Assembly (NCBI RefSeq): GCF_027580225.2 | Contig: NC_073361.2 | Span: 34,590,501-34,654,500, forward strand | DNA length: 64,000 bases | Source: Misgurnus anguillicaudatus | Taxonomy: Eukaryota > Chordata > Actinopteri > Cypriniformes > Cobitidae | Direction of reading: 5' to 3' | Part shown: in pieces, positions 30,662 to 64,000 of the stretch | Layout of the letters: each line of letters opens with the position of its first letter | How positions within the stretch are numbered: the first letter of the stretch is position 1 | Translations under genes and position numbers: made by a program | Notes under the pieces: model-generated | Told to the model about the DNA's origin: nothing | Database searches by the model: none | Seen by the model: only the letters and a program-made list of their open reading frames with translations

Positions 30662-31043
30662 GCGGCCAGACATAAAAATATTAGTTTACCCGGCAACCTC
30701 TGACTAAGATCAGAACTGGCAATTTTGTGTCCGTGAGATGTACGCAAACGGCCGGCGTATATCCTGTGCGATATCGGGTCCCTAATGAACGAATAATTAA
30801 GACTATGGGAATATATAAATAATCAAACATCTAAATTATGATAAACAGATAATTGGAATAATGCACAAAATTCTTAATATATTAAATTGGAGTCAGATTA
30901 TAATTTAAACACAGAGATCAAAGAAATTAATTTAATCATGATATGGAATTATTCTTCTAGAAGCGCTGAGGAAGGAACGAACACGAGTTCCCTTCACCCA
31001 CTCCACTTGCATCCGTCGTTGGGCTTGTGGGTGGTACCTTACA

Positions 31044-32290
31044 GTTTGCAGTCTCACTTTTGTCTTTTACGTCATCTGTGGTAGGCCTTGCATCCATGTG
31101 AGCTGACTTTGACCTCTGGCCTTTGCATTTTTACTTTGTGCTTGTGTCTTTTGCATGTGCCATTCACATTTAACACTCTCAGATGTTAAAGCCTGTGGGT
31201 TTGCAGTCTCACATTTGTCTTTTACATCATCTGTGGTAGGCCTTGCATCCATGTGAGCTGAATTTGACCACTGACCTTTGCATTGTAAGTATACAATTGT
31301 GTCTTTTGCATGTGCCATTCACATTTAACGCTCTCAGATGTTAAAGCATGTGTGTTTGCAGTCTCACTTTTGTCCTTTACACCATCTGTGGTAGGCCTTA
31401 CAAGCACAAAGTAAAAATGCAAAGGCCAGAGGTCAAAGTCAGCTCACATGGATGCAAGGCCTACCACAGATGGTGTAAAGGACAAATGTGAGACTGTAAA
31501 CCTGCATGCTTTAACATCTGAGAGTGTTAAATGTGGATGGCACATGCAAAACACACAAGCACAAAGTAAAAATGCAAAGGCCAGAGGTCAAAGTCAGCTC
31601 ACATGGATGCGTGTTTTGCATGTGCCATCCACATTTAACACTCTCAGATGTTAAAGCATGCAGGTTTACAGTCTCACATTTGTCTTTTACGTCATCTGTG
31701 GTAGGCCTTGCATCCAGGTGAGCTGAATTTGACCACTGACCTTTGCATTGTAAGTATACAATTGTGTCTTTTGCATGTGCCATTCACATTTAACACTCTC
31801 AGATGTTAATGCATGTGTGTTTGCATTCTTACTTTTGTATTTTACAGCATCGTTGGCAGGCCTGAATCCATGTTAACTGACTTTGACCTTTGACCTTTGC
31901 ATTGTACCTATGTGCTTGTGTCTTTTGCATGTGCCATCCACATTTAACACTCTCAGATGTGGATTTGCAGTCTCACAATGCAAAGGTCAGAGGTCAAAGT
32001 CAGCTCACCTGGATGCGGGGCCTACCACAGACGATGTAAAAAACAAGTGTAAGTATATAATTGTGTCTTTTGCATGTGCCATTCAAATTTAACACTCTCA
32101 GATGTTAAAGCCTGTGGGTTTGTAGTCTCATGCTTGTCTTTTACATCGTCTGTGGTAGGCCTGCATCCAGGTGAGCTTACTTTGACCTCTGGCCTTTGCA
32201 TTGTACCTATGTGCTTGTGTGTTTTGCAGGTTTTATTCACATTTAACACTTTCAGATGTTAATGCATGTGGGTTTGCAGTCTCACCTTTG
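31044..32290. repeat. TGACCT tandem array, right piece, with orientation switches
   Basis: Units of about 155 bp start with tttgcagtctcac at 31045, 31200 and 31355 in plus orientation. From about 31403 to 31612 the units are inverted (acaagcacaaagtaaaaatg, with agaggtcaaagtcagctcac). They return to plus at about 31613-31975, invert briefly at about 31976-32050, and are plus again to 32290. Each unit contains one or more TGACCT hexamers and a tttgcag or tttacag phrase. The small frames across this region are by-products of the repeat. Confidence 0.9.
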
Positions 32291-32512
32291 CCTTTCTCTT
32301 TTGTTTTCTTTACCAGACACCTAAATCTGAGTGCCCACTGTGCCACAAGCACATAGTTTACTGATGTCTTAATGCTGCTCCACAACTCTCCTATCACATG
32401 CAATTAAACTGATCTGTTTCTCTCTTGCTTTTCCAGTTGAGCGAAATGATGCCAATTGTGGACTCTGTGTTTATGCTGCATGAAGAATTCAGTTGCATAA
32501 CCAAATTTTCTT
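32291..32512 (+). pseudogene. Internally deleted copy of gene A
   Basis: Three consecutive pieces match the downstream gene almost base for base: 32291-32357 to 32717-32783 (acceptor and start of the zinc-finger exon), 32357-32453 to 33176-33272 (intron end and start of the Ser/Pro exon), and 32453-32512 to 33799-33858 (last intron). Intron sequence is retained, so it is a DNA-level copy with two internal deletions and not a processed pseudogene. The junctions share only tttac-type or single-base microhomology. It sits between two array segments, so an array-plus-gene unit was probably duplicated before deletion. Confidence 0.9.
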
Positions 32513-32742
32513 TTGGTTTGCAGTCTCACCTTTGTATTTTACAGCATCAGTGGCAGGCCTGCATCCAGGTGAGCTTACTTTGACCTCTGGCCTTTGCATT
32601 GTAACTATGTGCTTGTGAGCTGAATTTCACCTTTTAGCTGTGCATTTTTAAGGCAGACGCATCTACACTGTCCTTGTACTGCTTTTACATGCTCAATTGA
32701 CAATGTCAAGTGATTTCCTTTCTCTTTTGTTTTCTTTACCAG
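32513..32742. other. Single array unit and upstream sequence of gene A
   Basis: About one TGACCT-array unit in plus orientation (gcagtctcacctttgtattt, then actttgacctctggcc) runs to about 32620. It is followed by about 100 bp of unrecognised sequence and the polypyrimidine tract and AG acceptor (32741-32742) of the first visible exon of gene A. No convincing upstream exon or promoter was found. Confidence 0.6.
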
Positions 32743-33937
32743 ACACCTAAATCTGAGTGCCCACTGTGCCACAAGCACATAGTAAATTTCAAGCAGCACC
32801 TGCAGGTGACACATTATATTAAAAACCTGGAGGAGCGCCAGTTGTGGCAAAAGTTGGCAAGGGGCAGGGTTGTCCTTGGTGGACAAACCTGCCCCTTGTG
32901 CAACCACTTTTATAAGTGTTTCGAAGCCCATCTAATGAAACGCCACGAAGATATGTCCGTAAGTAATTTGTGTTAGACATTTAATTAATTATTTGTGCTC
33001 AATGAAACTGTTACTCAACAAGGTTATTTTTCAGAGCGATGAGAAGAACAAAATTATCAAGCAGAAGAAGTGGGAGGTCACCATGAGGGCCTTGGCGGAG
33101 CTGGCATCCAGCAAACCTGCCATCCCCTTGGTGACCTTGGTGGAGCTGCAGGAAAGTGGAAGTAGGTCCTAGTTTTTTACTGATGTCTTAATGCTGCTCC
33201 ACAACTCTCCTATCACATGCAATTAAACTGATCTGTTTCTCTCTTGCTTTTCCAGTTGAGCGAAATGATGCCTCCGCTGCCTCCGCTGCCTCCACCACTC
33301 CATCTCCCCCTCCATGTGAAATCCCTGCCACGCCTAATGTCACCTCCCCACCTGCCACCTTTTCCCTCAGCCCCACAATCACCTCCCCACCTGCCAACTT
33401 TTCCCTCAGCCCCACAGTCACCTCCCCACCTGCCACCTTTTCCCTCAGCCCCACTGTCACCTCCCCCCCTGCCACCTCAACTAGCCCTGATTTCCCCATG
33501 TCTTTCTCCCCCTTCTCTGAATTCCTTCCCACCTTCTCGCCTCCTCCTCCAACCCCCCCCCCCCCCCTTTAACCCAGACTCTATCAACTTGTCACCATGT
33601 GACTATTATATGGAAAGAACCCCCTCCCCTATAACAAGGGAGGGAGGCTGAACTAATCGAGGAGCTGTTGGGTAAGTCTTACGTGACAAGTGTAATCTTA
33701 GTGAGGGTACAATGTTCCAAAAATTAAACCATTGCTTTGTTTTATTGAAGGAATCCCTTGTGATGTGGGGAAGATTGAGGAGCAACCACGTAGGTGTTCA
33801 ATTGTGGACTCTGTGTTTATGCTGCATGAAGAATTCAGTTGCATAACCAAATTTTCTTCTTCCTTTCAGAACAAGACATGGCGACAGAAATTGAGAAAAC
33901 TTTAGGTTTTAGTTTTTTAGCAGATCTCGAATTTTAA
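32743..33937 (+). pseudogene. Gene A: zinc-finger protein, five exons, frame broken in exon 3
   Basis: Exons by GT..AG signals are 32743-32958, 33035-33161, 33256-33671, 33751-33789 and 33870-33937. Exon 1 encodes two zinc fingers: CPLCHKHIV..HLQVTH, and CPLCNHFYKCFEAHLMKRH, with NLEERQLWQKLARGRV between. Exon 2 gives LAELASSKPAIPLVTLVEL. Exon 3 is Ser/Pro/Thr-rich with a 39-bp unit repeated about 3.5 times (TSPPATFSLSP). Exons 4-5 end in LGFSFLADLEF and a stop. Phases agree across all junctions, but exon 3 loses frame around a run of 15 C at about 33553-33567 and has stops before its donor. It may be a pseudogene or hold a homopolymer error. The fingers and the AELASSKPAIP block are homologous to gene C at 60.5 kb. 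No initiator ATG was found. Confidence 0.75.
33341..33470. repeat. 39-bp coding minisatellite in exon 3 of gene A
   Basis: The unit cacctgccaccttttccctc plus agccccacagtcacctcccc recurs about 3.5 times with few changes. It encodes a 13-residue TSPPATFSLSPTV-type repeat in the frame that is open from the exon start. Confidence 0.85.
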
Positions 33938-35896: not shown

Positions 35897-38800
35897 ATGA
35901 TGGCTGAACAAGCTCAGAAGAAGAGGTAAGACTTTTGTTTTTTTAACTTTGGCTCAAACTATGAAACCTCGACCTATGAAACTATGGACCTCATAGTCTA
36001 AACCCTTTATCTAAACCATTTAGAGAGTATAAACATAACTATTTCAAAGTGCCTTTTAAGTGCCCTAACCATGGTTTTATTGTGTTAAAAGCATAGTAAC
36101 CATGTTTTTTGGTGTATTGATTACAAATTAACAAAACCATGGTTTTACTACACTAACCATGGTTGAAAAACTATTCATAATTTTCGTAAGGGTGAGCTTT
36201 ATTTTGATAACAAAAAACATAAAAAACTTGTTTTTTTTTCTTTTAAACTCAGTAAAAATCTAATGTTAAAAATGTAAAAGAAGGAGACTAATCTATATCA
36301 TGTCATTTTGTCTTGAAGGTCTGTTGACCGCACCTGTGTGCACTGCTTGCTGTGCCACCAACCCCAGGACCATCTCTCTGTTCCTCTGGCCAGGGTGTGC
36401 ATGAAGAACTGCACACCTGAGGAAAGAGCAGCTGAAGTTCAGAGAGCCAAAGCTTCAAGCAGAGAGTGGGTCTGCAACAACAGGAGCTGGGACTTCAACC
36501 AGCTCTGTGTTCTCCTGCCTGACAGACGCTCTCGGGTCACCATGGTCAAGGAGCTTCTTAGACGTGGTTTTTTCATCATGAACCAGCCCCGGGACTCTGA
36601 GTCTGACGGTGACCTGGAAGAAGAAGCTGCTGTTGCTGGTCCGTCTGATCTTCCTCAAACGTAAGGGCAATACTTAAATGCTTTAGCTGAAATGCTTTAA
36701 TTTAAATGCTTTTCTAACTTAGCATTTTTTCAATAACTTTAATTGTCTTGTCTGCTATGCTCCAAACAGCCGGGTCGTTAAAAGGTGGGCTCCTGCCATA
36801 ACAGACTGCCAGAAGATTTTGCGAGTGGCAAAGTCAGACGTGCTCAGGATCCAGAGGGACGTCCAGGTGGGCAGAGAGCTCTCCAGCACCCACAAGACGC
36901 TGTACCGTTACTACTGCGAGGCGCTGTTGGTGTTTGTCCACATGCAGCGTCCACGAGCTGTGGAAGCCTTGACTGTAAGTTCATACATTTTAACTGGTTT
37001 ACCCTTTAAGCTGTAATAATGGCACACTTATGCATGTGTAAATAACACCTTTTCAATATTTTCCAGGATTCAGAGTGGGTGAACAGGACCGAGCTGGGTG
37101 ACAGGGTTGTGATTGGCGTACAAAGGGGCACAACCTCGAGTATGCAGATCGCTCTGACCCAAGAAGAGCAAGCTGTAAGTTTTACAACGATCGAACTGTT
37201 GATGGCTTATCACCATTGTTTTACATTTAATAACTTTAATAACTAATAACTTTTTTGTAGTGCTTGGAGCTGTACTTCACCACCATCAGGCCTGAGAGCG
37301 TTCAGTCTGAAAAGCTTTGCAAGACCTTCTTTGTCTCGTCGTCCGGCGTGGATGTTCACAGTGTCTCACGGGACATGAATCGGTTCCATAAATTGTAAGT
37401 GCCCAACACAGGTCCATGTGCATGTGTGTGATACACTTAAGTGCTTCTTACCTCATCACAGTCACATCACAATTAACATTTACTTTTTTTCCCCTGCAGG
37501 TACAAGCTGGCTCCTTTCTCTTCCCAGTGTGTGCGAGGGGCTGTTGAGGCAGCTGCAGAAAAGCTCCCGGTGCAACAACAGGGAGTACTGCACCATTACC
37601 TGGGCCTCAGCGCTGGTGCATTTCAGCCTCAGGATGTCGTTGACGCAGCTCTGCTGCTGGAGTCATTGTCCAGGTATGGCTCTTTATTCAACCAGGGCAT
37701 AACTCATACAAAAAAAGTGAATGACATCTTGCTAAATTTCATGTGCAAAATGTAATATTATAAACCTTGTATTCCTTACATTTACAGGACTTCTGTGCAC
37801 GAGACATCCTTGACCGTCAGCGGTACAGCACATAAGGACTTTGTTGAGTTTGTGGCGAGATTTCCTGTTTCGCTGGAGGGTCAGCCACCATCCAAGAAGA
37901 AACGGGTCGAATCTGGTTTTCCAGATGACCGCGTTTTCTACGACAAGTGGAGGACCACCCAGTATGCCCAGAGACAGGAATATCTGCTGTGTAAGTCTCC
38001 GAATCCATCAATAGAGAATTGTCACTAATTAACTCAAAACTTTGCCATGAATTTACAATATCAAGTGACTCGCATGAGTAACATGTTTTAATTCTGTCTT
38101 TCAGCACGTTTCACAGTCCGCAAGCCTTCGGCAGCAAAGGTGGCACGCCTTATCATGCAGGAGGGCTGGAAGGTCAACTGTCCTAAGCCGGAGGACATCG
38201 AACGGCTGTGGGTGCCACCTTCGAAGGTAGCAGTTGAAGATGACAAGTTCATCCTCAGCTGTGTTTCTCAGCAGACCTGGTCAGGCCTGGCCATCAAAGA
38301 CTTCGGTGCCAAGCAAGGTTTAGGTACGGAAACCTTTCATTTGTGCAGGACATAATGTAAAATTTCATTTTAGCAGCCATGAACTTCATCAAGACCTGAA
38401 TTTAAATTATGAACTGTTTGTCTACATGTAGTGTTTATTCATTAACTCAATAAATAAAACTCTTTTTTATAGGAGTCGTTGCGACCCGGCAGTTCTCCAT
38501 GCACGACATTGTCTGTGACTACCATGGCAGGGTCATCTCAGGTGCTGAAGGGAGGGCCAAGATGGAAGGACTGAATGACCGGGTACCTGTTTTTCTTCAA
38601 GGCTGGACAGAGAGACCTGTGCGTGGATGCCCAGACCTTCCCCTGTGAGTGCCACCCTGCTACAGACACTGTGGGCAGGCGGATTAATCACTCTATGAGG
38701 GCGCCTAACCTGAAGCCCTTTCACTGCAGGCTGCGTGTGAATGGAGAGGAAAAGGTATTTTAATCTAATTTATGGCTATGTTCTAAGTGCATGTATGTTG

Positions 38801-39018
38801 TTGATTATATCTTGAAGCTGCCGTGACACTAATTTCCAGCAAATTATTAATAAAGTATATATCTATCTATCTATCTATCTATCTATATTTCTTAGGACAC
38901 CATCCTCTTCAGGGCACTGCAGGACATCAGTGTGGGCACAGAGTTGTGTTTCAACTACGGAGTGAAACGGAAGTCCTTCCGTGGAGAGGGCCTGGACCTG
39001 GACTGGCTGGATGATTAG
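35897..39018 (+). CDS. Gene B: tyrosine-recombinase-like region joined to a KMT5A-like SET methyltransferase; one frameshift
   Basis: Ten exons with GT..AG signals and agreeing phases: 35897-35925, 36319-36660, 36770-36974, 37067-37174, 37261-37394, 37500-37673, 37788-37990, 38105-38323, 38473-38754, 38896-39018. Exon 2 starts with a Cys/His segment (CVHCLLCHQ). Exons 3-6 resemble the catalytic half of Crypton-like fish tyrosine recombinases (RYYCEALLVFVHMQRPRAVE, then VIGVQRGTTSS, KTFFVSSSGVD, FSSQCVRGAV), but the expected catalytic tyrosine is not visible. Exons 8-10 are a SET domain close to KMT5A, the H4K20 monomethyltransferase: QGLGVVATRQFSMHDIV, GRRINHSM and ELCFNYGV, with the ligand-binding NHS and tyrosine kept. 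Exon 9 has a one-base frame change near 38577 (MEGLNDR against GYLFFFKAG), by mutation or sequence error. Nuclear chromatin action is inferred from the family. Confidence 0.85.
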
Positions 39019-39729: not shown

Positions 39730-42700
39730 TGTTATACAGGGGCCAAAAGTTGTGTTCCTCAATGACATACAAAGTAATTGAGGCACCCAGTGGGCTTGGA
39801 GTAATTTGGCACTTGGGGCCCCCAGAGCCTGGGGCCCTTCGTGTCATTTGGCCCCCAGGGGCCCTCAAGAGCCATAAATGGCAGATGGGCAGTTTAATGG
39901 GCTAATGGGCAAAATAGTGGGCAAATGGTCAATGCATAAATTGGCAGTGGGCAAAATAAACTGACAGTGGGCAACATAACTTGGGGGCCCCAAGGGGGCC
40001 AGGCCCAGGGGCCAAAAGTCGTTTTCCTCAATGACAGACAAAGCAATTGGGCACCCGGTGGGCCTGCAACACTTTGGCACTTGGGGCCTCCAGAGCGTAG
40101 GGCCCTCTTGGTCATTTGGCCCCCAGGGGCCCTCAGAGCCATAAATGGCAGATGGGCAAAAAAGTGGGCAAATGGTCAATGCATAAGTTGGCAGTGGGCA
40201 AAATAAACTGTCGGTGGGCAACATAACTTGGGGCCCCAAGGGGGCCAAGCCCAGGGGCCAAAAGATGTTTTCCTCAATTGCAGACAAAGTAATTGGGGCA
40301 CCCAGTGGGCTTGGAGTAATTTGGCACTTGGGGCCCCCAGAGCTTAGGGCCCTCTTGGTCATTTGGCCCCCAGGGGCCCTCAGAGCCATAAATGGCAGAT
40401 GGGCAAAAAAGTGGGCAAATGGTCAATGCATAAGTTGGCAGTGGGCAAAATAAACTGTCGGTGGGCAACATAACTTGGGGCCCCAAGGGGGCCAAGCCCA
40501 GGGGCCAAAAGATGTTTTCCTCAATTGCAGACAATACTTTGGCACTTGGGGCCCCCAGAGCCTGGGGCCCTCTGGGTCATTTGGCCCCCAGGGGCCCAAA
40601 GAGGCATAAATGGCAGATGGGCAGTTTAATGTGCTAATGGGCAAAATAGTGGGCAAATAGTCAATGCATAAGTTGGCTGTGGGTGAAATAAACTGTCAGT
40701 GGGCAACATAACTTGGGGCCCCCAGGGGCCTTCAGAGCCATAAATGGCAGATGGGCAGTTTAATGTGCTAATTGGCAAAATAGTGGGGAAATGGTCAATG
40801 CATAAGTTGGCTGTGGGTGAAATAAACTGTCAGTTGGCAACATAACTTGGGGCCCCAGGGGCCCTCAGAGCCATAAATTGCAGATGGGCAGTTTAATGGG
40901 CTAATGGGCAAAATAGTGGGCAAATGGTCAATGCATAAATTGGAAGTGGGTGAAATAAACTGTCAGTGGGCAACATTACTTGGGGCCCCAAGGGGGCCAA
41001 GCCCAGAGGCCAAAAGTTTTTTTCCTCAATGGCAGACAATACTTTGGCACTTGGGGCCCCCAGAGCCTGTGGCCCTCTGGGTCATTTGGCCCCCAGGGGC
41101 CCATAGAGGCATAAATGGCAGAAGGGCAGTTTAATGGGCTAATGGGCAGAATAGTGGGCTAATGGGCAATGCATAAATTGGAAGTGGGCAAAATAAACTG
41201 ACAGTGGGCAATGCATAAATTGGCAGTGGGCAAAATAAACTGACAGTGGGCAACATAACTTGGGGCCCCAAGGGGGCCAAGCCCAGAGGCCAAAAGTTGT
41301 TTTCCTCAATGACATACAAAGCAATTGGGCACCTGGTGGGCCTGCAACACTTTGGCACTTGGCCCTCTGGGTCATTTGGCCCCCAGGGGCCCTCAGAGCC
41401 ATAAATGGCAGATGGGCAGTTTAATGGGCTAATGGGCAGAAAAGTGGGCAAATGGTCAATGCATAAGTTGGCAGTGGGCAAAATAAACTGTCAGTGGGCA
41501 ACATAACTTGGGGCCCCAAGGGGGCCAAGCCCAGGGGCCAAGAGATGTTTTCCTCAATGACAGACAAAGTAATTGGGGCACCCAGAGGGCCTGGAGTACT
41601 TTGGCACTTGGGGCCCCCAGAGCCTGGGGCCCTCCTTGTCATTTGGCCCCCAGGGGCCCTCAGAGCCATAAATGGCAGATGGGCAGTTTAATGGGCTAAT
41701 GGGCAGAATAGTGGGCTAATGGGCAATGCATAAATTGGCAGTGGGCAAAATAAACTGACCGTGGGCAACATAACTTGGGGCCCCAAAGGGGCCAAGCCCA
41801 GGGGCCAAGAGATGTTTTCCTCAATGACAGACAAAGTAATTGGGGCACCCAGTGGGCCTGGAGTACTTTGGCACTTGGGGCCCCCAGAGCCTGGGGCCCT
41901 CCTTGTCATTTGGCCCCCAGGGGCCCTCAGAGCCATAAATGGCAGATGGGCAGTTTAATGTGCTAATGGGCAAAATAGTGGGCAAATGGTCAATGCATAA
42001 GTTGGCTGTGAGTGAAATAAACTGTCAGTGGGCAACATAACTTGGGGCCCCCAGGGGCCCTCAGAGCCATAAATGGCAGATGGGCAGTTTAATGGGCTAA
42101 TGGGCAAAATAGTGGGCAAATGGTTAATGCATAAATTGGAAGTGGGTGAAATGAACTGTCAGTGGGCAACATTACTTGGGGCCCCAAGGGGGCCAAGCCC
42201 AGAGGCCAAAAGTTTTTTTTCTCAATGGCAGACAATACTTTGGCACTTGGGGCCCCCAGAGCCTGGGGCCCTCTGGGTCATTTGGCCCCCAGGGGCCCAT
42301 AGAGGCATAAATGGCAGATGGGCAGTTTAATGGGCTAATGGGCAGAATAGTGGGCAAATGGTCAATGCATAAGTTGGCAGTGGGCAAAATAAACTGACAG
42401 TGGGAAACATAACTTGGGGCCCCAAGGGGGCCAAGCCCAGAGGCCAAGAGATGTTTTCCTCAATGACAGACAAAGTAATTGGGGCACCCAGTGGGCTTGC
42501 AACACTTTGGCACTTGGCCCTCTGGGTCATTTGGCCCCCAGGGGCCCTCAGAGCCATAAATGGCAGATGGGCAGTTTAATGGGCTAATGGGCAGAAAAGT
42601 GGGCAAATGGTCAATGCATAAGTTGGCAGTGGGCAAAATAAACTGTCAGTGGGCAACATAACTTGGGGCCCCAAGGGGGCCAAGCCCAGTGCCAAGAGAT

Positions 42701-43930
42701 GTTTTCCTCAATGACAGACAAAGTAATTGGGGCACCCAGTGGGCCTGGAGTACTTAGGCACTTGGGGCCCCCAGAGCCTGGGGCCCTCCTTGTCATTTGA
42801 CCCCAGGGGCCCTCAGAGCCATAAATGGCAGATGGGCAGTTTAATGGGCTAATGGGCAGAATAGTGGGCTAATGGGCAATGCATAAATTAGCAGTGGGCA
42901 AAATAAACTGACCGTGGGCAACATAACTTGGGGCCCCAAGGGGGCCAAGCCCAGGGGCCAAGAGATGTTTTCCTCAATGACAGACAAAGTAATTGGGGCA
43001 CCCAGTGGGCCTGGAGTACTTTGGCACTTTGGGCCCCCAGAGCCTGGGGCCCTCCTTGTCATTTGGCCCCCAGGGGCCCTCAGAGCCATAAATGGCAGAT
43101 GGGCAGTTTAATGGGCTAATGGGGAGAATAGTGGGCTAATGGGCAATGCATAAATTGGCAGTGGGCAAAATAAACTGACAGTGGGCAACATAACTTGGGG
43201 CCCCAAGGGGGCCAAGCCCAGAGGCCAAAAGTTGTTTTCCTCAATGGCAGACAAAGTAAATGGGCACATAGTAGGCCTGGAATCATTTGGCACTTGGGGC
43301 CCCCAGAGCTTGGGGCCCTTCGTGTCATTTGGCCCCCAGGGGCCCTCAAGAGCCATAAATGGCAGATGGGCAGTTTAATGGGCTAATGGGCAAAATAGTG
43401 GGCAAATGGTCAATGCATAAGTTGGCTGTGGGTGAAATAAACTGTCAGTGGGCAACATTACTTGGGGCCCCCAGGGGCCCTCAGAGCCATAGATGGCAGA
43501 TGGGAAGTTTAATGTGCTAATGGGCAAAATAGTGGGCAAATGGTCAATGCATAAGTTGGCTGTGGGTGAAATAAACTGTCAGTGGGCAACATAACTTGGG
43601 GCCCCCAGAGCCATAAATGGCAGATGGGCAGTTTAATGTGCTAATGGGCAAAATAGTGGGCAAATGGTCAATGCATAAGATGGCTGTGGGTGAAATAAAC
43701 TGTCAGTGGGCAACTTAACTTGGGGCCCCCAGGGGCCCTCAGAGCCATAAATGGCAGATGGGCAGTTTAATGTGTTAATGGGCAAAATAGTGGGCAAATG
43801 GTCAATGCATAAGTTGCCAGTGGGTGAAATAAACTGTCAGTGGGCAACATAACTTGGGGCCCCCAGGGCCCCTCAGAGCCATAAATGGCAGGTGGGCAGT
43901 TTAATGTGCTAAGGGGCAAAAACGTTAATC
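39730..43930. repeat. GC-rich satellite, unit about 245-270 bp, plus orientation
   Basis: About 4.2 kb of tandem units. Landmarks in order are ggggccaaaagttgttttcc, cctcaatgacagacaaag, a ttggcacttggggcccccag phrase, gtcatttggcccccagggg, ccataaatggcagatgggca, a gggcaaaatagtgggcaaat phrase and a gggcaacataacttggggcc phrase. Full units alternate with shorter units of about 115-120 bp that lack the first half, especially at 40690-40900 and 43380-43900. The unit is mostly free of stops in several frames, which produces many small spurious frames on both strands. Confidence 0.92.
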
Positions 43931-44439: not shown

Positions 44440-44790
44440 GAGTGGGAAAATTCATAGTGCTCGTGCAATTTACTTGAATGGGTTTTGGCCACATTCAAAT
44501 ACATTGGGACTGGACAATGGCTGCGCCGCCCGGTGGATCTCCCCTGAACTGCAAGCTCCGGCACGAAAAAAGGGCTCAACTAAAACGCTCCCCCGTGTGG
44601 CCCCCCGGGGCCCAAATGGCTCGGCGAGACTTTTTCCCGTAACGAGGGGGGGCCACCGACGCGCGTACACCACCGGTTGACCCCCCAAAAATTTCGGGGG
44701 GCCGGCGCGCAACGACCGCGAACCAGCGTCCAAATGGTCACTAAGTAAATTGCACGTAGATACGCAATGGCCTTAGGCGAGTATCCGCAT
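44440..44790. repeat. Left arm of an inverted repeat around the 15-bp minisatellite
   Basis: About 320 bp that match the reverse complement of 46605-46930 with frequent substitutions. Shared landmarks are ttgggactggaca, cccctgaactgcaagctc, ccccccggggcc, ggcccaccgacgcg, and the final gcgagtatccgc against the right end ggccactcgc. It is non-coding. Confidence 0.8.
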
Positions 44791-46612
44791 ATCCAGTATC
44801 CGCATTTCCAGTATCCGCATTTCCAATATCCGCATATCCAGTATCCTAAACTCCAGTATCCGCATATCCAGTATCCTAAACTCCAGCATCCGCATATCCA
44901 GTATCCAAAATTCCAGCATCCGCATATCCAGTATCCGCATATCCAGTATCCGCATATCCAGTATCCGCCACATATCCAGTATCCGCCACATATCCAGTAT
45001 CCGCATATCCAGTATCCAAAATTCCTGTATCCGCATATTCAGTATCCGCATATCCAGTATCCGCATATCCAGTATCCTAAACTCCAGCATCTGCATATCC
45101 AGTATCCTAAACTCCAGCATCCGCATATCCAGTATCCTAAACTCCAGCATCTGCATATCCAGTATCCTAAACTCCAGCATCCGCATATCCAGTATCCTAA
45201 ACTCCAGCATCCGCATATCCAGCACCCTAAACTCCAGCATCCGCATATCCAGCACCCTAAACTCCAGAATCCGCATATCCAGTATCCGCATATCCAGTAT
45301 CCAAAAATCCAGTATCCGCATATCCAGTATCCAAAACTCCAGTATCCGCATATCCAGTATCCGCATATCCAGTATCCTAAACTCCAGCATCCGAATATCC
45401 AGTATCCTAAACTCCAGCATCCGCATATCCAGTATCCAAAATTCCAGTATCCGCATATCCAGTATCCAAAACTCCAGTATCCGCATATCCAGTATCCGCA
45501 TATCCAGCATCTGCATATCCAGTATCCTAAACTCCAGCATCCGCATATCCAGTATCCAAAATTCCAGCATCCGCATATCCAGTATCCGCATATCCAGTAT
45601 CCGCATATCCAGTATCCGCATATCCAGTATCCGCATATCCAGTATCCGCATATCCAGTATCCAAAATTCCAGTATCCGCACATCCAGAATCCAAAACTCC
45701 AGTATCCGCATATCCAGTATCCGCATTTCCAGTATCCGCATTTCCAGTATCCGCATATCCAGTATTCTAAACTCCAGTATCCGCATATCCAGTATCCTAA
45801 ACTCCAGCATCCGCATATTCAGTATCCAAAATTCCAGTATCCGCATATCCAGTATCCGCATATCCAGTATCCACATATCCAGTATCCGCATATCCAGTAT
45901 CCGCATATCCAGTATCCGCATATCCAGTATCCGCATATCCAGTATCCAAAATTCCAGTATCCGCATATCCAGTATCCGCATATCCAGTATCCGCATATCC
46001 AGTATCCGCATATCCGCATATCCAGTATCCTAAACTCCAGAATCCTCATATACAGTATCCAAAATTCCAGCATCCGCATATCCAGTATCCGCATATCCAG
46101 TTTCCTAAACTCCAGTATCCGCATATCCAGTATCCTAAACTCCAGTATCCGCATATCCAGTATCCAAAATTCCAGTATCCGCATATCCAGTATCCTAAAC
46201 TCCAGTATCCGCATATCCAGTATCCTAAACTCCAGTATCCGCATATCCAGTATCCGCATATCCAGTATCCGCATATCCAGTATCCAAAATTCCAGTATCC
46301 GCATATCCAGTATCCGCATATCCAGTATCTGCATATCCAGTATCCGCATATCCGCATATCCAGTATCCTAAACTCCAGAATCCTCATATACAGTATCCAA
46401 AATTCCAGCATCCGCATATCCAGTATCCGCATATCCAGTTTCCTAAACTCCAGTATCCGCATATCCAGTATCCTAAACTCCAGTATCCGCATATCCAGTA
46501 TCCAAAATTCCAGTATCTGCATATCCAGTATCCTAAACTCCAGTATCCGCATATCCAGTATCCGCATTTCCAGTATCCGCATTTCCAGTATCCGCATATC
46601 CAGTAACCTAAA
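44779..46612. repeat. 15-bp minisatellite, about 120 copies
   Basis: The basic unit is gtatccgcatatcca. Regular variants are gtatcctaaactcca, gtatccaaaattcca, gtatccgcatttcca and gcatccgcatatcca. Variants tend to alternate, and one block of about 340 bp around 46015-46190 recurs at about 46343-46520, so higher-order duplication is visible. Because the unit is five codons without a stop, long open frames appear on both strands (44767-46371 plus, 44773-46011 minus). They encode only YPHIQ/YPKLQ or MRILD-type repeats and have no support as genes. Confidence 0.95.
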
Positions 46613-53029: not shown

Positions 53030-54760
53030 TGACACGAACCAGGTACGAAAAATAACATTGCTTTAATGGAGACGTGTCAGTGCCGTCACGCGGCCCCGTA
53101 AGGGCACGCGGCTTCGAAACGCACGTGGTATCCCCTTGCCGACGGCCCAGCTGAGGAATCCGGCGGCCTGCCCCCCGAGAACCTTTCGTGACCCTACTTG
53201 CCAACCCTAACCCTAGGCGTTTTGTGATTGCACTGGGAGGCACACCGAGGGCGCTGTGGGCACGGCGTACGCCAAATGCGCGCGGGCTTCGGAGACGTCG
53301 TGCGAGGGCCCTCTACTGGACCGCATGCCGAATTTCGGGCACCTAGTCCTTTTCCCGGCCTCGCGGGAGCACTGACAGTTTCCCGCTAAAACTGCGGGTT
53401 CGCGGACGGTGTCCGATCGGGTCGAAATTCGGCACCCGCGTGCTTGGGGGCCCCGCCGTACGGGCCCCTGAAGCGCAGACCCCTGGGACCTTCAGAAAAA
53501 AAATTAGCGAAACGGAGCTCGAATGGCAAACAACATTGTCTGGTGGTCTAGGCCATCAAGAGGATCGTGATGAGTGATTTTGAGAACATTTGGACAACCT
53601 TGTCTTATTTAGGAGCTACGTTCACCAGATTCGGATATGTCGATCGGGGGCCCCCCTAGAGGTCATATGACACCGCGCGGGGTCACGAGGAGCGCGTCCA
53701 CAAACCCATTACGGAAAATAACATTGGTTTAATGGAAAAGTGTCGCGACCCCCGCACGGTCCCCGAACGTCGCACAGCCCCGATACGCCCGTCGTAACAT
53801 CCCACATGGGGCCCGGCCGGGGACTCCGAAGCACGCGGCGGAGAGCCTATAGCGAGCCGAGTTACGAACCCTAAAACTGGGATTTCGCGGCGCTCCTGTG
53901 CGGCGTTGGCGCGCGTGTTTCGGATATGTCGGGCCAGAGCCGTCCGGCAGACCGCATGCCGAATTTGGCGAGCTTACGACTTTTCCTGTCCTCGCGGGAG
54001 ACCCGACAGTTTCCCGCGTTTAGGTACGCGGGTTCGTGTCGGCTTCCGATCGGGCCGAAACTCGGCACGCGCGCACTCCGGGGTCCCAAACGACGGAACC
54101 CGGAAGCGCAGACTCGAGCGACGTTCGGAAGAAGAAATATAGGGCCATATCTCGCGCGGCGGTCGCACTTTGCGGTGGGTTTACGCGGTCGCGAAGACTC
54201 CGATTCGACCGGGGCGCGCGCGGGTCTGCTAGTCCGGACGTCCTCTCCGCGGAACACCGAGCGTCGCGGCCGAGACCCCTTCGCGACTCAACCTGCCTGC
54301 ACTAGTTTTAAGGTTTTCGGCAGGGCGTAGCGCGCGCCTTACGCCGTCGGCGCGCGGGTTCCGGATATGTCGCGCTAGAGCTCTCCGGCAGCCCGCGCAC
54401 CGATTTCTGCGACCTTTCAACTTTTCCCAGCTTAGCAGGAGACCTGACAGTTTCCCGCTACCGGCCGTGGGTTCGTGCCGGAGTCCGATCGGGTCAAAAA
54501 TCGGCACGCTCTATGTCGGAGTTCTCCCGAGACGGACCCCCGAAGCGCGAGCCGCTGCGGCGTTCCTGAAAGAATAGATTAAAAAAAGCAACGAAAACTT
54601 GAGGCCTGAGGGGGGAATTTGATGTTTTCGGACGGCGGCCAAACTTTTTCTTTCACGCCACGACGCCCGTCTTCGGATATGTCGTAGAGGGGCACTCTGT
54701 GAGCCAGGGCAACGAATTTGGGGCACCTAGGCCCTTCCGGGGCCCTTCGGTGAGGCTGCG
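53030..54760. repeat. GC-rich long tandem repeat, about 310-665 bp units, diverged
   Basis: Recurring phrases are: ataacattg(c/g)tttaatgga at about 53048 and 53715; gaccgcatgccgaattt at about 53320 and 53951; ctgacagtttcccgct or its variants at about 53372, 54006 and 54443; and cggatatgtcg at about 53634, 53921, 54361 and 54674. The first two units are about 665 bp apart and later ones are shorter. The high GC content opens long frames on both strands (for example 53926-54330 plus, 53871-54257 minus). They overlap each other and follow repeat boundaries, so they are not called as genes. Confidence 0.75.
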
Positions 54761-60505: not shown

Positions 60506-61738
60506 ATGTATGCAAAGTGTCCATTGTGTGGCAGAGACTACGCGCAACTGAGCCAGCACCTGAAGGTGTTGCACGGTGTCGTCAATCTGGAGGAGAGACG
60601 CCTCCTTCTGGCGCTCGAGTCCGGCCGGGTCAACGTCCGTCAGGGACGTTGCCCCGTGCCGGGATGCCAGAAGGAGGTGTCCAGGATGGACAGACACCTC
60701 TTCTCCCACTCAGAGCTCTCGGCAAAGGCGACCCGGCGTGCAAAAAGCGGCAAAAAATACTGCTGGAGCTGGCGACCCTGAGAGCTACCAACCCGGCGGT
60801 GCCGATGGTGTCTTCCCTCGACCTGCGGGGGGAAGGAGAGCAGGCCGGGGAAGGCACCTCGGCCGCCGCCGCCTCCGCCGAGGAAGACGCGGAGCCGCAG
60901 GACTGCGGCTCCGAGGCCTGTGCGCGGGCTCGCCACAGGCTGAGGGCGACCAACGCCGACCTCAACGACCAGGTCGACGCCCTCACGTCTTCCTTGGCGG
61001 AGGTCACCAAGAGGTATAAAAAACTTCTTCATCGGAAGACGGCGAGGACGGCGCAGGAAGTCCGGAGGGTGACGGGTAAGCTTCTCAGCGCTCTGGAGGC
61101 TCCGGTGTCTCCGGACCGGGAGGAGGCACCACCGGAGGCCACCGGAGACTCTCCTCCGGAGGTAGAAGCTGGGCCCGTCACGCCACCCCCGCAACCTGAG
61201 GAGGAAGAGGGGGGAGAGTCGAGCGGCCCTCAGTTTCCGGACCACGTGGTCGCCCTTAGTGAGTAGCGGTCTTTGTTCCCAGCGACCTCCTACTGTCGAT
61301 AGTCTATAATGCTAACGTTTATCTCCCTCTCTCTCTCTCTAGACGAGCTCCTGGCGGAGTTCAGGAGGCACCACGAGGGGCCGGAACCCAGCCGGAAGCT
61401 GAGGGACAACGTTACCAGCAAAGTGTACCGGATCAGGGCCTTTGTGGCCTACATGGCAGAAGGGAAAAGCCGACTGGCCACGTTGAGGTTCATGGACGAC
61501 CCTGAGAGGATGAGGACGTAAGTTCCGGTCCTCGTTGTCTTTCTGCTGTCGTTTTGACGCCGGCGGGGCGCTATTAACTCTCGTTTTTCTTTGTGTGTGT
61601 GTCCGCAGGTGGGTGACCAGTCTCAGGGCGTCCAAAATGACCGAGACTACCTTGAAACACTATCTGGACAACGTGGCCCAGTTCCTTGACTATGTGCATG
61701 AGACCCCTCCGCCGACCTCCCGCCTGTCCAAGAAATCC
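60506..61738 (+). pseudogene. Gene C: zinc-finger / coiled-coil / recombinase core-binding-domain protein, cut by a LINE
   Basis: Exons by splice signals are 60506-61258, 61343-61517 and 61609 to about 61738, where a LINE interrupts. The N-terminus has two zinc fingers: CPLCGRDYAQLSQHLKVLH (residue 5) and CPVPGCQKEVSRMDRHLFSH (about 50), with NLEERRLLLALESGRV between. The next block, LLELATLRATNPAVPMV, matches gene A. A one-base frame change near 60727 separates the two. An acidic region and a predicted coiled coil (about 140-190) follow. Exons 2-3 (LAEFRRHHEGPEPSRKLRDN, then TLKHYLDNVAQFLDYVHETP) look like the SAM-like core-binding domain of tyrosine recombinases. The catalytic part would lie beyond the insertions. 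Low-GC neighbours contrast with its GC-rich coding sequence. Confidence 0.82.
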
Positions 61739-62735
61739 AAGTTCAAGTTCAAGTTCAAGAAACTTTATTATCCCCGAGGGGAAATTTGTTGTGCAGCAGC
61801 ATACAATACACATTACACAAAACAACGACCATACAATCAACAGGAATAAATTCAATACATACAACACAAAAGTCCGCAACTCACATTAACTTGTTAAGAC
61901 CACCTATAGCAGCGGGAACAAAGGAATGTTTGTGTCTGTTGGTACTGCATTTAGGCAGTTTGAATCTACCACCTGATGGCAACAAAATAAAACAGCCGTA
62001 CAATGGGTGGCATGGATCAGCTAAAATTGAATGTGCCTTTTTAACAGTCATAATCTCATATAAATTGTTTAAACCAGGCAAAGAATTGTGGGAAATTTTG
62101 CCGCACACCTTCACTATGTTTTGAAGCCTGTTCTTGTTTTTAAGTGAAAGGGACCCGAACCAACTCACAAGAGCAAATGAAATAATGGATTCAATAAAAC
62201 AACAGTAAAACATCCTCATAAAAGTATTATCAACATTAAAATTCCTAAGTTTACGGTAAAAAAACATACGTTGATTTGATTTTTTACAGACAGCGTCTAC
62301 CTGTGGCTCAAAGGTGAGTTTGTCATCAATAATAATTCCAAGGTATTTATATTGCTTCACCACTTCTATATCCTGATCATTTATGGAAGAGTGGGAGGGG
62401 AGTGGAGGATTCTTTCTAAAATCAATCAACATTTCTTTAGTTTTTTCCGTATTGATATCGATAAAAGATGACTTACACCACTCTGTAAAATCATTTAAAA
62501 TAGCATCATGCTCTGGTCATTGTGTATCAGCAGCGACACACACACTTAATCGTCAGCATACTTAATAATATGACGCCTTTACTTTGGCATGCATTTGTAT
62601 ATAAATAAATAAGATCGTGGAGAGGACGCATCCCTGTGGGGAACCAGTGGAAGAAAGGAGAACATCAGATAAAATGCCATTCACTCTTACACGTTGAGAT
62701 CTATTAGTTAAAAAATTCATCAACCAACAGATAAG
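61739..62735 (-). mobile_element. Minus-strand LINE fragment inserted in gene C
   Basis: The 3' end is at the plus-strand left side, with a (ttcaag)n tail (61740-61760; CTTGAA repeats on the element strand) after an AATAAAG-type signal. The body encodes the RT C-terminal half. It is itself cut at 62736 by a Gypsy LTR, so its 5' portion lies outside the window. The clade is a Jockey-superfamily type (CR1/Rex-like), inferred from style only. Confidence 0.82.
61881..62735 (-). pseudogene. LINE reverse transcriptase fragment
   Basis: Two minus-strand frames are visible. The upstream one (62735 down to 62562) carries the RT phrases NFLTNRSQRVRVNG and GSPQGCVLS, then breaks. The downstream one (62432 to 61881) carries YKYLGIIIDDKLTFEPQVD and a thumb-type C-terminus (LPSGGRFKLPKCSTNRHKHS). 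The segment between, which should hold the catalytic YADD, is frameshifted; a cgtcagcata phrase near 62551 remains. The copy is inactive. Confidence 0.82.
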
Positions 62736-64000
62736 TGTAAGGGTTTTGTGTTGCATTTAGTTCTGTTCATTGTTAATCATCTTGTTTAGTTCAGTTATCT
62801 CATTTCATCATTATTAATCTCACCTGTTTAATCATTAGTTAAGTTCTTACACCTGTGTTTAATTAGTTTGCTCACCCTTTATATTCTGCCCTCATGTGTC
62901 TTTCCCTTGTCAGTCGTTGAATGTGAATGTATGTCTAATGTGAAGCTGTTCCTCGTCATCGTTGTGTGTATTGAATAAAGTTCCAGAGTATATATATATA
63001 ATCCTGTTTCCTCGTTATCGTTTGTATTAGTAGAGTTAGAGTACGTGACAGAACGACTGACCTAAAAGTTTTACGTGGCGTTTAGTGTTCCCTCCTGTTT
63101 CCAGCTAGTTTTTTGTTTTTGCGTTTCACAGTTTCGGTTTTTAGTTTAGTTTATCATGGATATCCCGGCTGTGAAAATTCTATGTCTGGAGCAGGGACAT
63201 TGTCCGCTGGAAGTTCACATCAAGGACTTTTTAGACCTGGCGTGCCTGACTCACTACCCTGATAGCGCGCTCTGTGTCTTTCTTTTGACCAGCCTGAGCG
63301 CGCAGTCAAAGGCACGCCTTCCAGCGGGCGGTCCAGAGAACAATTCGCCGCTTATGTGGAGTGGGTGCTGTTCCACAACAACTCCCCATTCACTGTTGGC
63401 CCTGCCAATGGGGAGTTTGCCGCCAGCCCCACTTCACTCCCAAAGACCGACACGCCAACACCCTCCATGGACCTCGAGCCCAACGCGGGCGGAGAAAGGC
63501 AATGCGACCAGTGAGCCAGAGCGAACCCCTGAGCCCAGCGTCGCTGAGATCCCGGATCCCTCCTCCGACCAGGTGCGAGAGCCGAGTTGTCTGGGAATCG
63601 CCGCGGGAGCTGCTGAGGATGTCGAGGACGACATCCACCTCCACGCCGCTGAGGGTGAGCATATTACGTCTCTTGGGGAAATTTTTTTGGACTGTGCTAT
63701 GGACATTTCCCTTTCTTCGTCAGCTCCACTGGTTCCGTCCAGCTCCTCCTCGTCACAGTTGGACCCGCCCAACCTCCCACTCCCGCCTCCTCTGCCTACC
63801 TCAGCCAGTCTGAAGCACCTGCAGCCATCACAGCGACACGCCCCTGCTCATCCTCAGCGCGTCAGTGTTGCTGGTTCGATTGATCCGTGGCGTGCCTCTC
63901 TGCCAGCTGCTTTCGGGGAGCTCTCCAGTTCTCCGCCTCCGCTCCCTGAGACCAAGAGGTCGCCTCATCCCGTCGGACCAGTGGCATCACTTCAGGTCTC
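62736..64000 (+). mobile_element. 5' end of a second Ty3/Gypsy retrotransposon, running off the window
   Basis: The 5' LTR (62736-63050, 315 bp) begins tgtaagggt and ends gtacgtgaca, with an aataaa at about 62973. It is followed by a leader of about 105 bp and a gag-like region. It interrupts the LINE at 62735. No TGG-type primer site directly follows the LTR (gaacgactgacc), so the primer is unclear. The right part and target duplication are outside the window. Confidence 0.8.
63156..64000 (+). pseudogene. Gypsy gag of the fish LCLEQG type, frameshifted and partial
   Basis: The ATG at 63156 opens a frame with ILCLEQG, HIKDFLDLACLTHYPD and FLLTSLSAQSKARLP, a Gag type very common in cyprinid Gypsy elements (recognised from memory). 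The frame shifts near 63330, where AAYVEWVLFHNNSPFTVGPA continues in another frame, and again near 63510 (SEPERTPEPSVAEIPDPS). A Pro/Ser-rich tail follows to the window edge. No zinc knuckle is seen in this part. Confidence 0.8.

Follow-up and report, generated by a model that had tools for sequence, protein, structure and literature searches.

A frame-broken loach member of a teleost gene family with a tyrosine-recombinase-like half and a SET8-like domain

Introduction

Why would a recombinase-like protein carry its own chromatin methyltransferase? The question is raised by a gene on the plus strand (35897-39018) of a 64,000-nucleotide stretch of the genome of the loach Misgurnus anguillicaudatus (contig NC_073361.2), referred to below as the window. 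A first-pass annotation, made from the letters alone, had described the gene as a degenerate tyrosine-recombinase-like region fused to a SET domain resembling the H4K20 methyltransferase KMT5A. Based on the analysis of its relatives, we propose that the window holds a frame-broken copy of a teleost recombinase-SET8 family, the intact members of which are predicted to be DNA-guided histone methyltransferases, likely placing di- or trimethyl marks on lysine 20 of histone H4 (H4K20me2/3) at the DNA they bind. We give this reading a probability of about 0.5. It builds on the conserved domain order, on models of relatives in which the folds of both halves are recognized, on the loss of recombinase catalytic residues in most members examined, on the phenylalanine at the SET switch position and on the slower change of the SET domain compared with the recombinase half.

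Results

Searches with the in-frame part of the window gene and with the recombinase region of Festucalex P0029 retrieved 56 and 57 proteins, respectively (87 in union), and Pfam marked a SET domain in 41 of the 56 and 40 of the 57. The main alignment had 87 rows, that is 86 proteins plus the window, with P0056 omitted; two further alignments, A1 and A2, held 41 of the 56 proteins of the first search and 44 of the 87. Identities and trees were computed on 53 rows, and active sites were read in the 51 rows having both halves, selected by a slightly different filter. The in-frame part is 97% identical to M. anguillicaudatus P0001 (LOC129434954) over 98% of the 507-residue query, 79% identical to Xyrauchen P0002 and 51% to zebrafish P0019, and in the tree the window groups with proteins of Xyrauchen and Siphateles and two of Pimephales (support 100/99). 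The family spans teleosts from Megalops to percomorphs, zebrafish among them; all its proteins that carry species names come from what we take, by those names, to be teleosts. Full-length members share one domain order: a C2HC-like zinc finger, a core-binding domain, a recombinase catalytic-type domain, a conserved linker and SET. The core-binding domain is missing from the window copy and its nearest relatives alike.

The recurrence of the exon order across teleosts bears out the earlier claim of a fusion, as far as sequence can tell. Could the SET exons nevertheless belong to another gene, wrongly joined to its neighbour? Some database models do seem to merge neighbours (P0025, P0124, P0136, P0144 and P0086), but the same order is found in distant teleosts, P0076, on a short contig, reads through every part in a single frame, and conservation is highest in the linker that connects the two halves. 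We therefore regard a misjoining as highly improbable. Among the titles and abstract openings listed from the open PubMed Central literature, we found none describing a recombinase-SET fusion. A side observation concerns Pimephales P0086, a single database model that joins PF14484, PF05729, PF17776 and PF17779, presumably NLR-type domains, to the recombinase-SET protein; because of this model, recombinase-SET genes may sit within NLR clusters.

In the loach genome, 42 exon matches at E<=0.001 can be grouped into seven or more multi-exon loci, which are spread over six contigs; these counts are lower bounds, since 56 of 81 candidates were scored. Labelled by contig and position, the loci are C25:34.63 Mb (the window), C13:34.86, C12:4.75, C20:6.24, C23:30.55, C22:14.31 and C25:6.50.

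The window gene has ten exons, as annotated at first pass, and nine introns, all of the latter GT-AG; the phase consistency claimed for the exons extends only to 38579. Exon 1 (35897..35925, MMAEQAQKK) resembles the starts of P0003 and P0006 (MAEQAQKRS) and has no counterpart in the C13 copy, whereas exon 2 (36319..36660) encodes an N-terminal domain that we name, by its motif, C2HC-type zinc-finger-like. The recombinase catalytic-type domain starts in exon 3 (36770..36974) with the first arginine (QRPRAVEAL) and continues as a recombinase-like domain through exons 4 (37067..37174), 5 (37261..37394) and 6 (37500..37673). Exon 7 (37788..37990) carries the conserved linker (FPVS..GQPPSKK..GFPDDRVFYDKWR), and exon 8 (38105..38323) the linker end and the start of the SET region. 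Exon 9 (38473..38754) encodes the SET domain, with CDYHG in frame and GRRINHS out of frame, and exon 10 (38896..39018) its end (ELCFNYG, with F at the switch position) and the C-terminus, again out of frame. P0001 has an alternative first exon: its first 17 residues match the window exactly (17/17) at 33763..33813 on the plus strand (MWGRLRSNHVGVQLWTL).

The frame is open through exons 1-8 and half-way into exon 9, where it breaks at 38580..38580. An aspartate codon has its last base at 38579 and the reading of GYLFFF begins at 38581, leaving a single base where relatives have three or six, namely one codon (M) in the C12 copy and two (E A) in Xyrauchen P0002. Uninterrupted translation stops 22 residues past the break, giving a product of about 529 residues. 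The remainder of SET, which includes GRRINHS and the C-terminal FNYG, stays open but in a frame different from that of exons 1-8, and its 98 residues read alone pass the Pfam cut-off for SET (PF00856, E 1.5e-8). Thus, the GRRINHS and NYG signatures noted earlier are indeed retained, but owing to the break in exon 9 they are out of frame with exons 1-8. An assembly error was considered as the cause and rejected: the bases at the break recur in the C13 copy, and the deposited P0001 ends there; a short intron was rejected as well, the visible GT...AG pair spanning only about 20 bases. In the C12 and C20 copies SET stays open. Since its protein would be truncated and its SET domain incomplete, the window copy is likely a decayed family member, or at most a DNA-binding remnant.

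The recombinase half is recognized by fold rather than by sequence profile. A profile match to tyrosine recombinases had been set beforehand as a check, and it failed: for two window pieces and 10 relatives, Pfam gave no integrase family at the cut-off, no transposase family, and no PF12012 (DUF3504) among families at E<=1, and PHROG gave no integrase-named row at E<=1 for the 10 relatives. Phage_int_SAM_1 appeared as a sub-threshold Pfam match in two of these relatives. In predicted-structure comparison, by contrast, the models of two relatives show the folds of a core-binding and a tyrosine-recombinase domain. In one search there was no recombinase among the 50 matches listed, SET matches filling the listing. 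Against a viral library, the only protein to match the P0067 model at E<=0.001 was an uncharacterised giant-virus protein (2.7e-4), with mostly phage integrases below it. The spacing of the histidine-to-tyrosine motif (nine positions) recurs in 15 of 87 rows, and three positions before the second arginine histidine is mostly replaced by glutamine. Taken together, the fold of relatives' models and the motif spacing support a tyrosine-recombinase identity of exons 3-6, as originally proposed. The window itself has R, R, L and a gap in the catalytic columns, so that the tyrosine is missing, as the annotation had it, together with the histidine before it; exon 6 retains the second arginine and has lost these two residues. 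All four residues (R, R, H and Y) are retained in 16 of the 74 rows with a recombinase part and in 12 of the 51 rows with both halves, the latter from distant fish.

The SET half is closest to SET8 in profile, structure-model and single-sequence comparisons, which confirms the resemblance to KMT5A. At the position equivalent to Tyr334, phenylalanine occupies 54 of the 63 rows with a residue and tyrosine only two, so most members do not carry the tyrosine of the monomethylation type. In single-sequence comparison, the window SET piece comes closest to CpSET8 of Cryptosporidium. This enzyme is described as having phenylalanine at the switch as well and as yielding an H4K20me3 signal in vitro (PMC9487757).

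Which half is conserved? Mean pairwise identity was 0.553 for the linker, 0.541 for SET, 0.509 for the zinc finger, 0.489 for the core-binding domain and 0.468 for the recombinase domain, and of 1378 pairs, 1143 had a higher identity in SET than in the recombinase domain, as did 18 of 26 disjoint pairs. The proportion of non-synonymous differences (pN) between the window and C12 copies was likewise lower in SET (0.274) than in the recombinase half (0.423). The proportion of synonymous differences (pS) was about 0.8 in both halves, so synonymous divergence (dS) is saturated between loach subfamilies, and dN/dS was set aside as a measure. Active sites tell a less uniform story. Among the 51 rows, both sites are kept in six, SET only in 15 (the window, read across its frame break, is one of them), recombinase only in six and neither in 24. 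Five cyprinid proteins that kept the recombinase residues and lost those of SET form one tree group with 100/100 support; the window's own group of 22 rows (21 cypriniform, one catfish; 96/85) has no row with all four recombinase residues. The suggestion that SET activity is the part under selection is therefore only partly supported: SET changes more slowly, but the window SET is frame-broken and losses across the 51 rows run both ways. Because some paralogs have lost one active site and some the other, the family offers a natural experiment on which half matters.

These data also bear on the idea that the genes are decaying copies without present function, the fusion having been useful once or only in some fish. 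The 24 rows with neither active site and the frame-broken window and C13 copies favour this idea, as does exon 2, in which window and C13 differ mostly by amino-acid changes (nine non-synonymous, two synonymous). The remaining counts for this pair, non-synonymous to synonymous, are 2/4 in the recombinase domain, 9/7 in the linker and 4/3 in SET before the break; past it there are two and three in the SET frame versus five and none in the upstream frame, which leans towards the SET frame but is too few to decide. The C13 copy is identical to the window over 36661-37499 and differs by 7-10% in introns 1, 7 and 9, a mosaic that suggests gene conversion and weakens these substitution counts. Against decay, C12 and C20 differ at nine of 1527 exonic and 33 of 1078 non-exonic sites (Fisher p 1.5e-6), the listed exon stretches having thus diverged five times less. 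The nine exonic differences comprise two in the zinc finger, three in the recombinase exons and four in exons 8-10. Moreover, SET is open in both of these copies, and pN is below pS in every part compared between the window and C12. We consider decay throughout the family rather unlikely.

A second gene accompanies the fusion. At C12, the fusion gene is immediately preceded on its 5' side by a same-strand recombinase gene without SET (4757974-4760576), and such sister genes occupy the same position at C20 (two in tandem) and C22. Farther upstream, again on the same strand, there is a sister copy at a distance of about 70 kb at C13 and of about 55 kb at C25; none was found at C23 (50 kb read) or C25:6.50 (8.5 kb), except for matches to the fusion gene's own exons. 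Sister and fusion proteins are related over 292 columns (hhalign probability 95.8, E 7.9e-9). We aligned 57 of 62 sister proteins (P0096, P0116, P0124, P0136 and P0144 were left out), and R, R, H and Y are present in 34 of the 44 rows with all four columns. Genome-wide there are at least 150 sister exon matches (63 of 418 candidates scored), with a large cluster at C12:0.7-9.1 Mb. Of 17 zebrafish entries, nine are on a 76,376,419-base contig, presumably that of si:dkey-23a23.2.

Could the two genes be parts of a mobile element, Crypton-like and bringing its own SET domain? In that case the sister would do the strand exchange, and the fusion protein would mark or protect the element. Consistent with this are the complete catalytic residues in most sisters and in some fusion proteins of distant fish, the spacing-nine motif and the adjacency at C12, C20 and C22. 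Between the C12, C20 and C23 copies, moreover, the blocks that bear the genes are 97-99.7% alike. However, at the homology edges read for these copies neither shared ends nor target repeats were seen, the genes have many introns, the sister matches cluster at C12 as if by local duplication, and the gene copies lie amid satellite repeats that are themselves shared between loci. A mobile element thus appears unlikely to us.

Several features around these genes deserve mention. The window has a plus-strand N-terminal remnant of a sister gene at 32758..33157, about 3 kb 5' of the fusion (P0118, 41%, E 1.3e-8; P0097, 33%, E 8.4e-10). Nested direct and inverted repeats at 30988-33272 duplicate a zinc-finger-like exon (TPKSECPLCHKHIV) and are probably sister-gene remnants. 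Fragments resembling sister protein P0138 occur at 53309-54453. By protein matches, a second sister fragment on the plus strand (60512..61726) comprises a zinc-finger-like, a coiled-coil-like and a core-binding part; the rest of the window gave no match to a catalytic part. Beside this truncated gene, on the minus strand (61881-62756), are frame pieces with GSPQGCVLS, a motif by which we take them for reverse transcriptase of the long interspersed nuclear element (LINE) type. A satellite-like, GGCCCC-rich array with spacings of about 134 and 267 bases follows the fusion gene directly (39737-43925), and an array of 15/30-base period lies at 44665-45600; both are present at C13 too. At C12, a 50-base tandem repeat separates sister and fusion genes (L011 4799-5126), and similar units lie between the tandem sisters at C20. 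A retrogene was also considered at C20, where an 896-residue open frame is listed at 6242496-6245045; the open reading frame scan of the locus gave exon-sized frames only, and the idea was dropped.

Discussion

How might a DNA-guided methyltransferase of this family work? In intact members, the core-binding and recombinase domains would act as a sequence-specific DNA clamp, by analogy with the mariner part of SETMAR, and the zinc-finger N-terminus would aid binding. The SET domain would then write its mark beside the clamped DNA. Possible targets may be the family's own ancestral element, its sister recombinases' genes or repeats of other kinds. From the window copy, only a truncated protein whose SET is incomplete would be expected. 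A domesticated recombinase serving as a clamp for a methyltransferase follows the logic reported for SETMAR, as given in part of PMC6326780.

It is tempting to go further and to imagine an ancient teleost module of two genes: an intact tyrosine recombinase and, behind it on the same strand, a SET8-fused recombinase switched from mono- to trimethylation, the latter a self-targeted writer of heterochromatin at recombinase-type sites, much like zinc-finger-guided silencing. Duplicates would have split, some keeping recombination and others methylation. This extension is speculative, and we think it rather improbable. Pogonophryne P0136, one predicted protein consisting of a sister recombinase, a second recombinase, the linker and SET, shows the same order of sister and fusion, which is why this order seems old, although the model may merge two genes.

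Comparison with known systems places the DNA-guided methyltransferase reading in context. The phage regulators MrpR, YopR and SroF are among the matches listed for the P0067 model (MrpR and SroF being regulators by entry title), and we take all three to have the tyrosine-recombinase fold. They are bacterial or phage proteins and are not known to carry SET. Crypton-derived DUF3504 genes (KCTD1, KIAA1958, ZMYM2-4, QRICH1) are animal genes with a tyrosine-recombinase domain whose catalysis has been lost, according to part of PMC3212892, in the text of which the word "methyltransferase" does not occur. Unlike them, the present family is without a PF12012 match at E<=1, and some of its members retain R, R, H and Y. 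With KMT5A/SET8 (SETD8, PR-Set7) it shares the SET fold, the best profile match and the YHG, NHS and DYG motifs; it differs in the phenylalanine at the Tyr334 position, the long recombinase and linker region, the multi-copy state, and an extra insert (PCECHP) that stands opposite a gap in the alignment. CpSET8, alike in its switch residue and as best single match, belongs to an unrelated lineage, and we know of no recombinase module in it.

The closest parallel is SETMAR (Metnase), in which a SET methyltransferase is likewise joined to a transposon-derived DNA-binding module. Its SET domain is at the N-terminus, whereas ours is at the C-terminus; its module is a mariner DDE-type transposase rather than a tyrosine recombinase; and it is one gene of anthropoid primates, in contrast to a multi-copy teleost family. 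Excerpts of the SETMAR literature describe the transposase as inactive (PMC8704517) and the target as H3K36 (PMC4593633), as opposed to the H4K20 predicted here. If our reading is true, the family would join SETMAR as another, independent example of an enzyme from a mobile element that has come to aim a chromatin methyltransferase, the recombinase class and the predicted mark being different ones. Its presence across teleosts, zebrafish included, opens it to direct tests.
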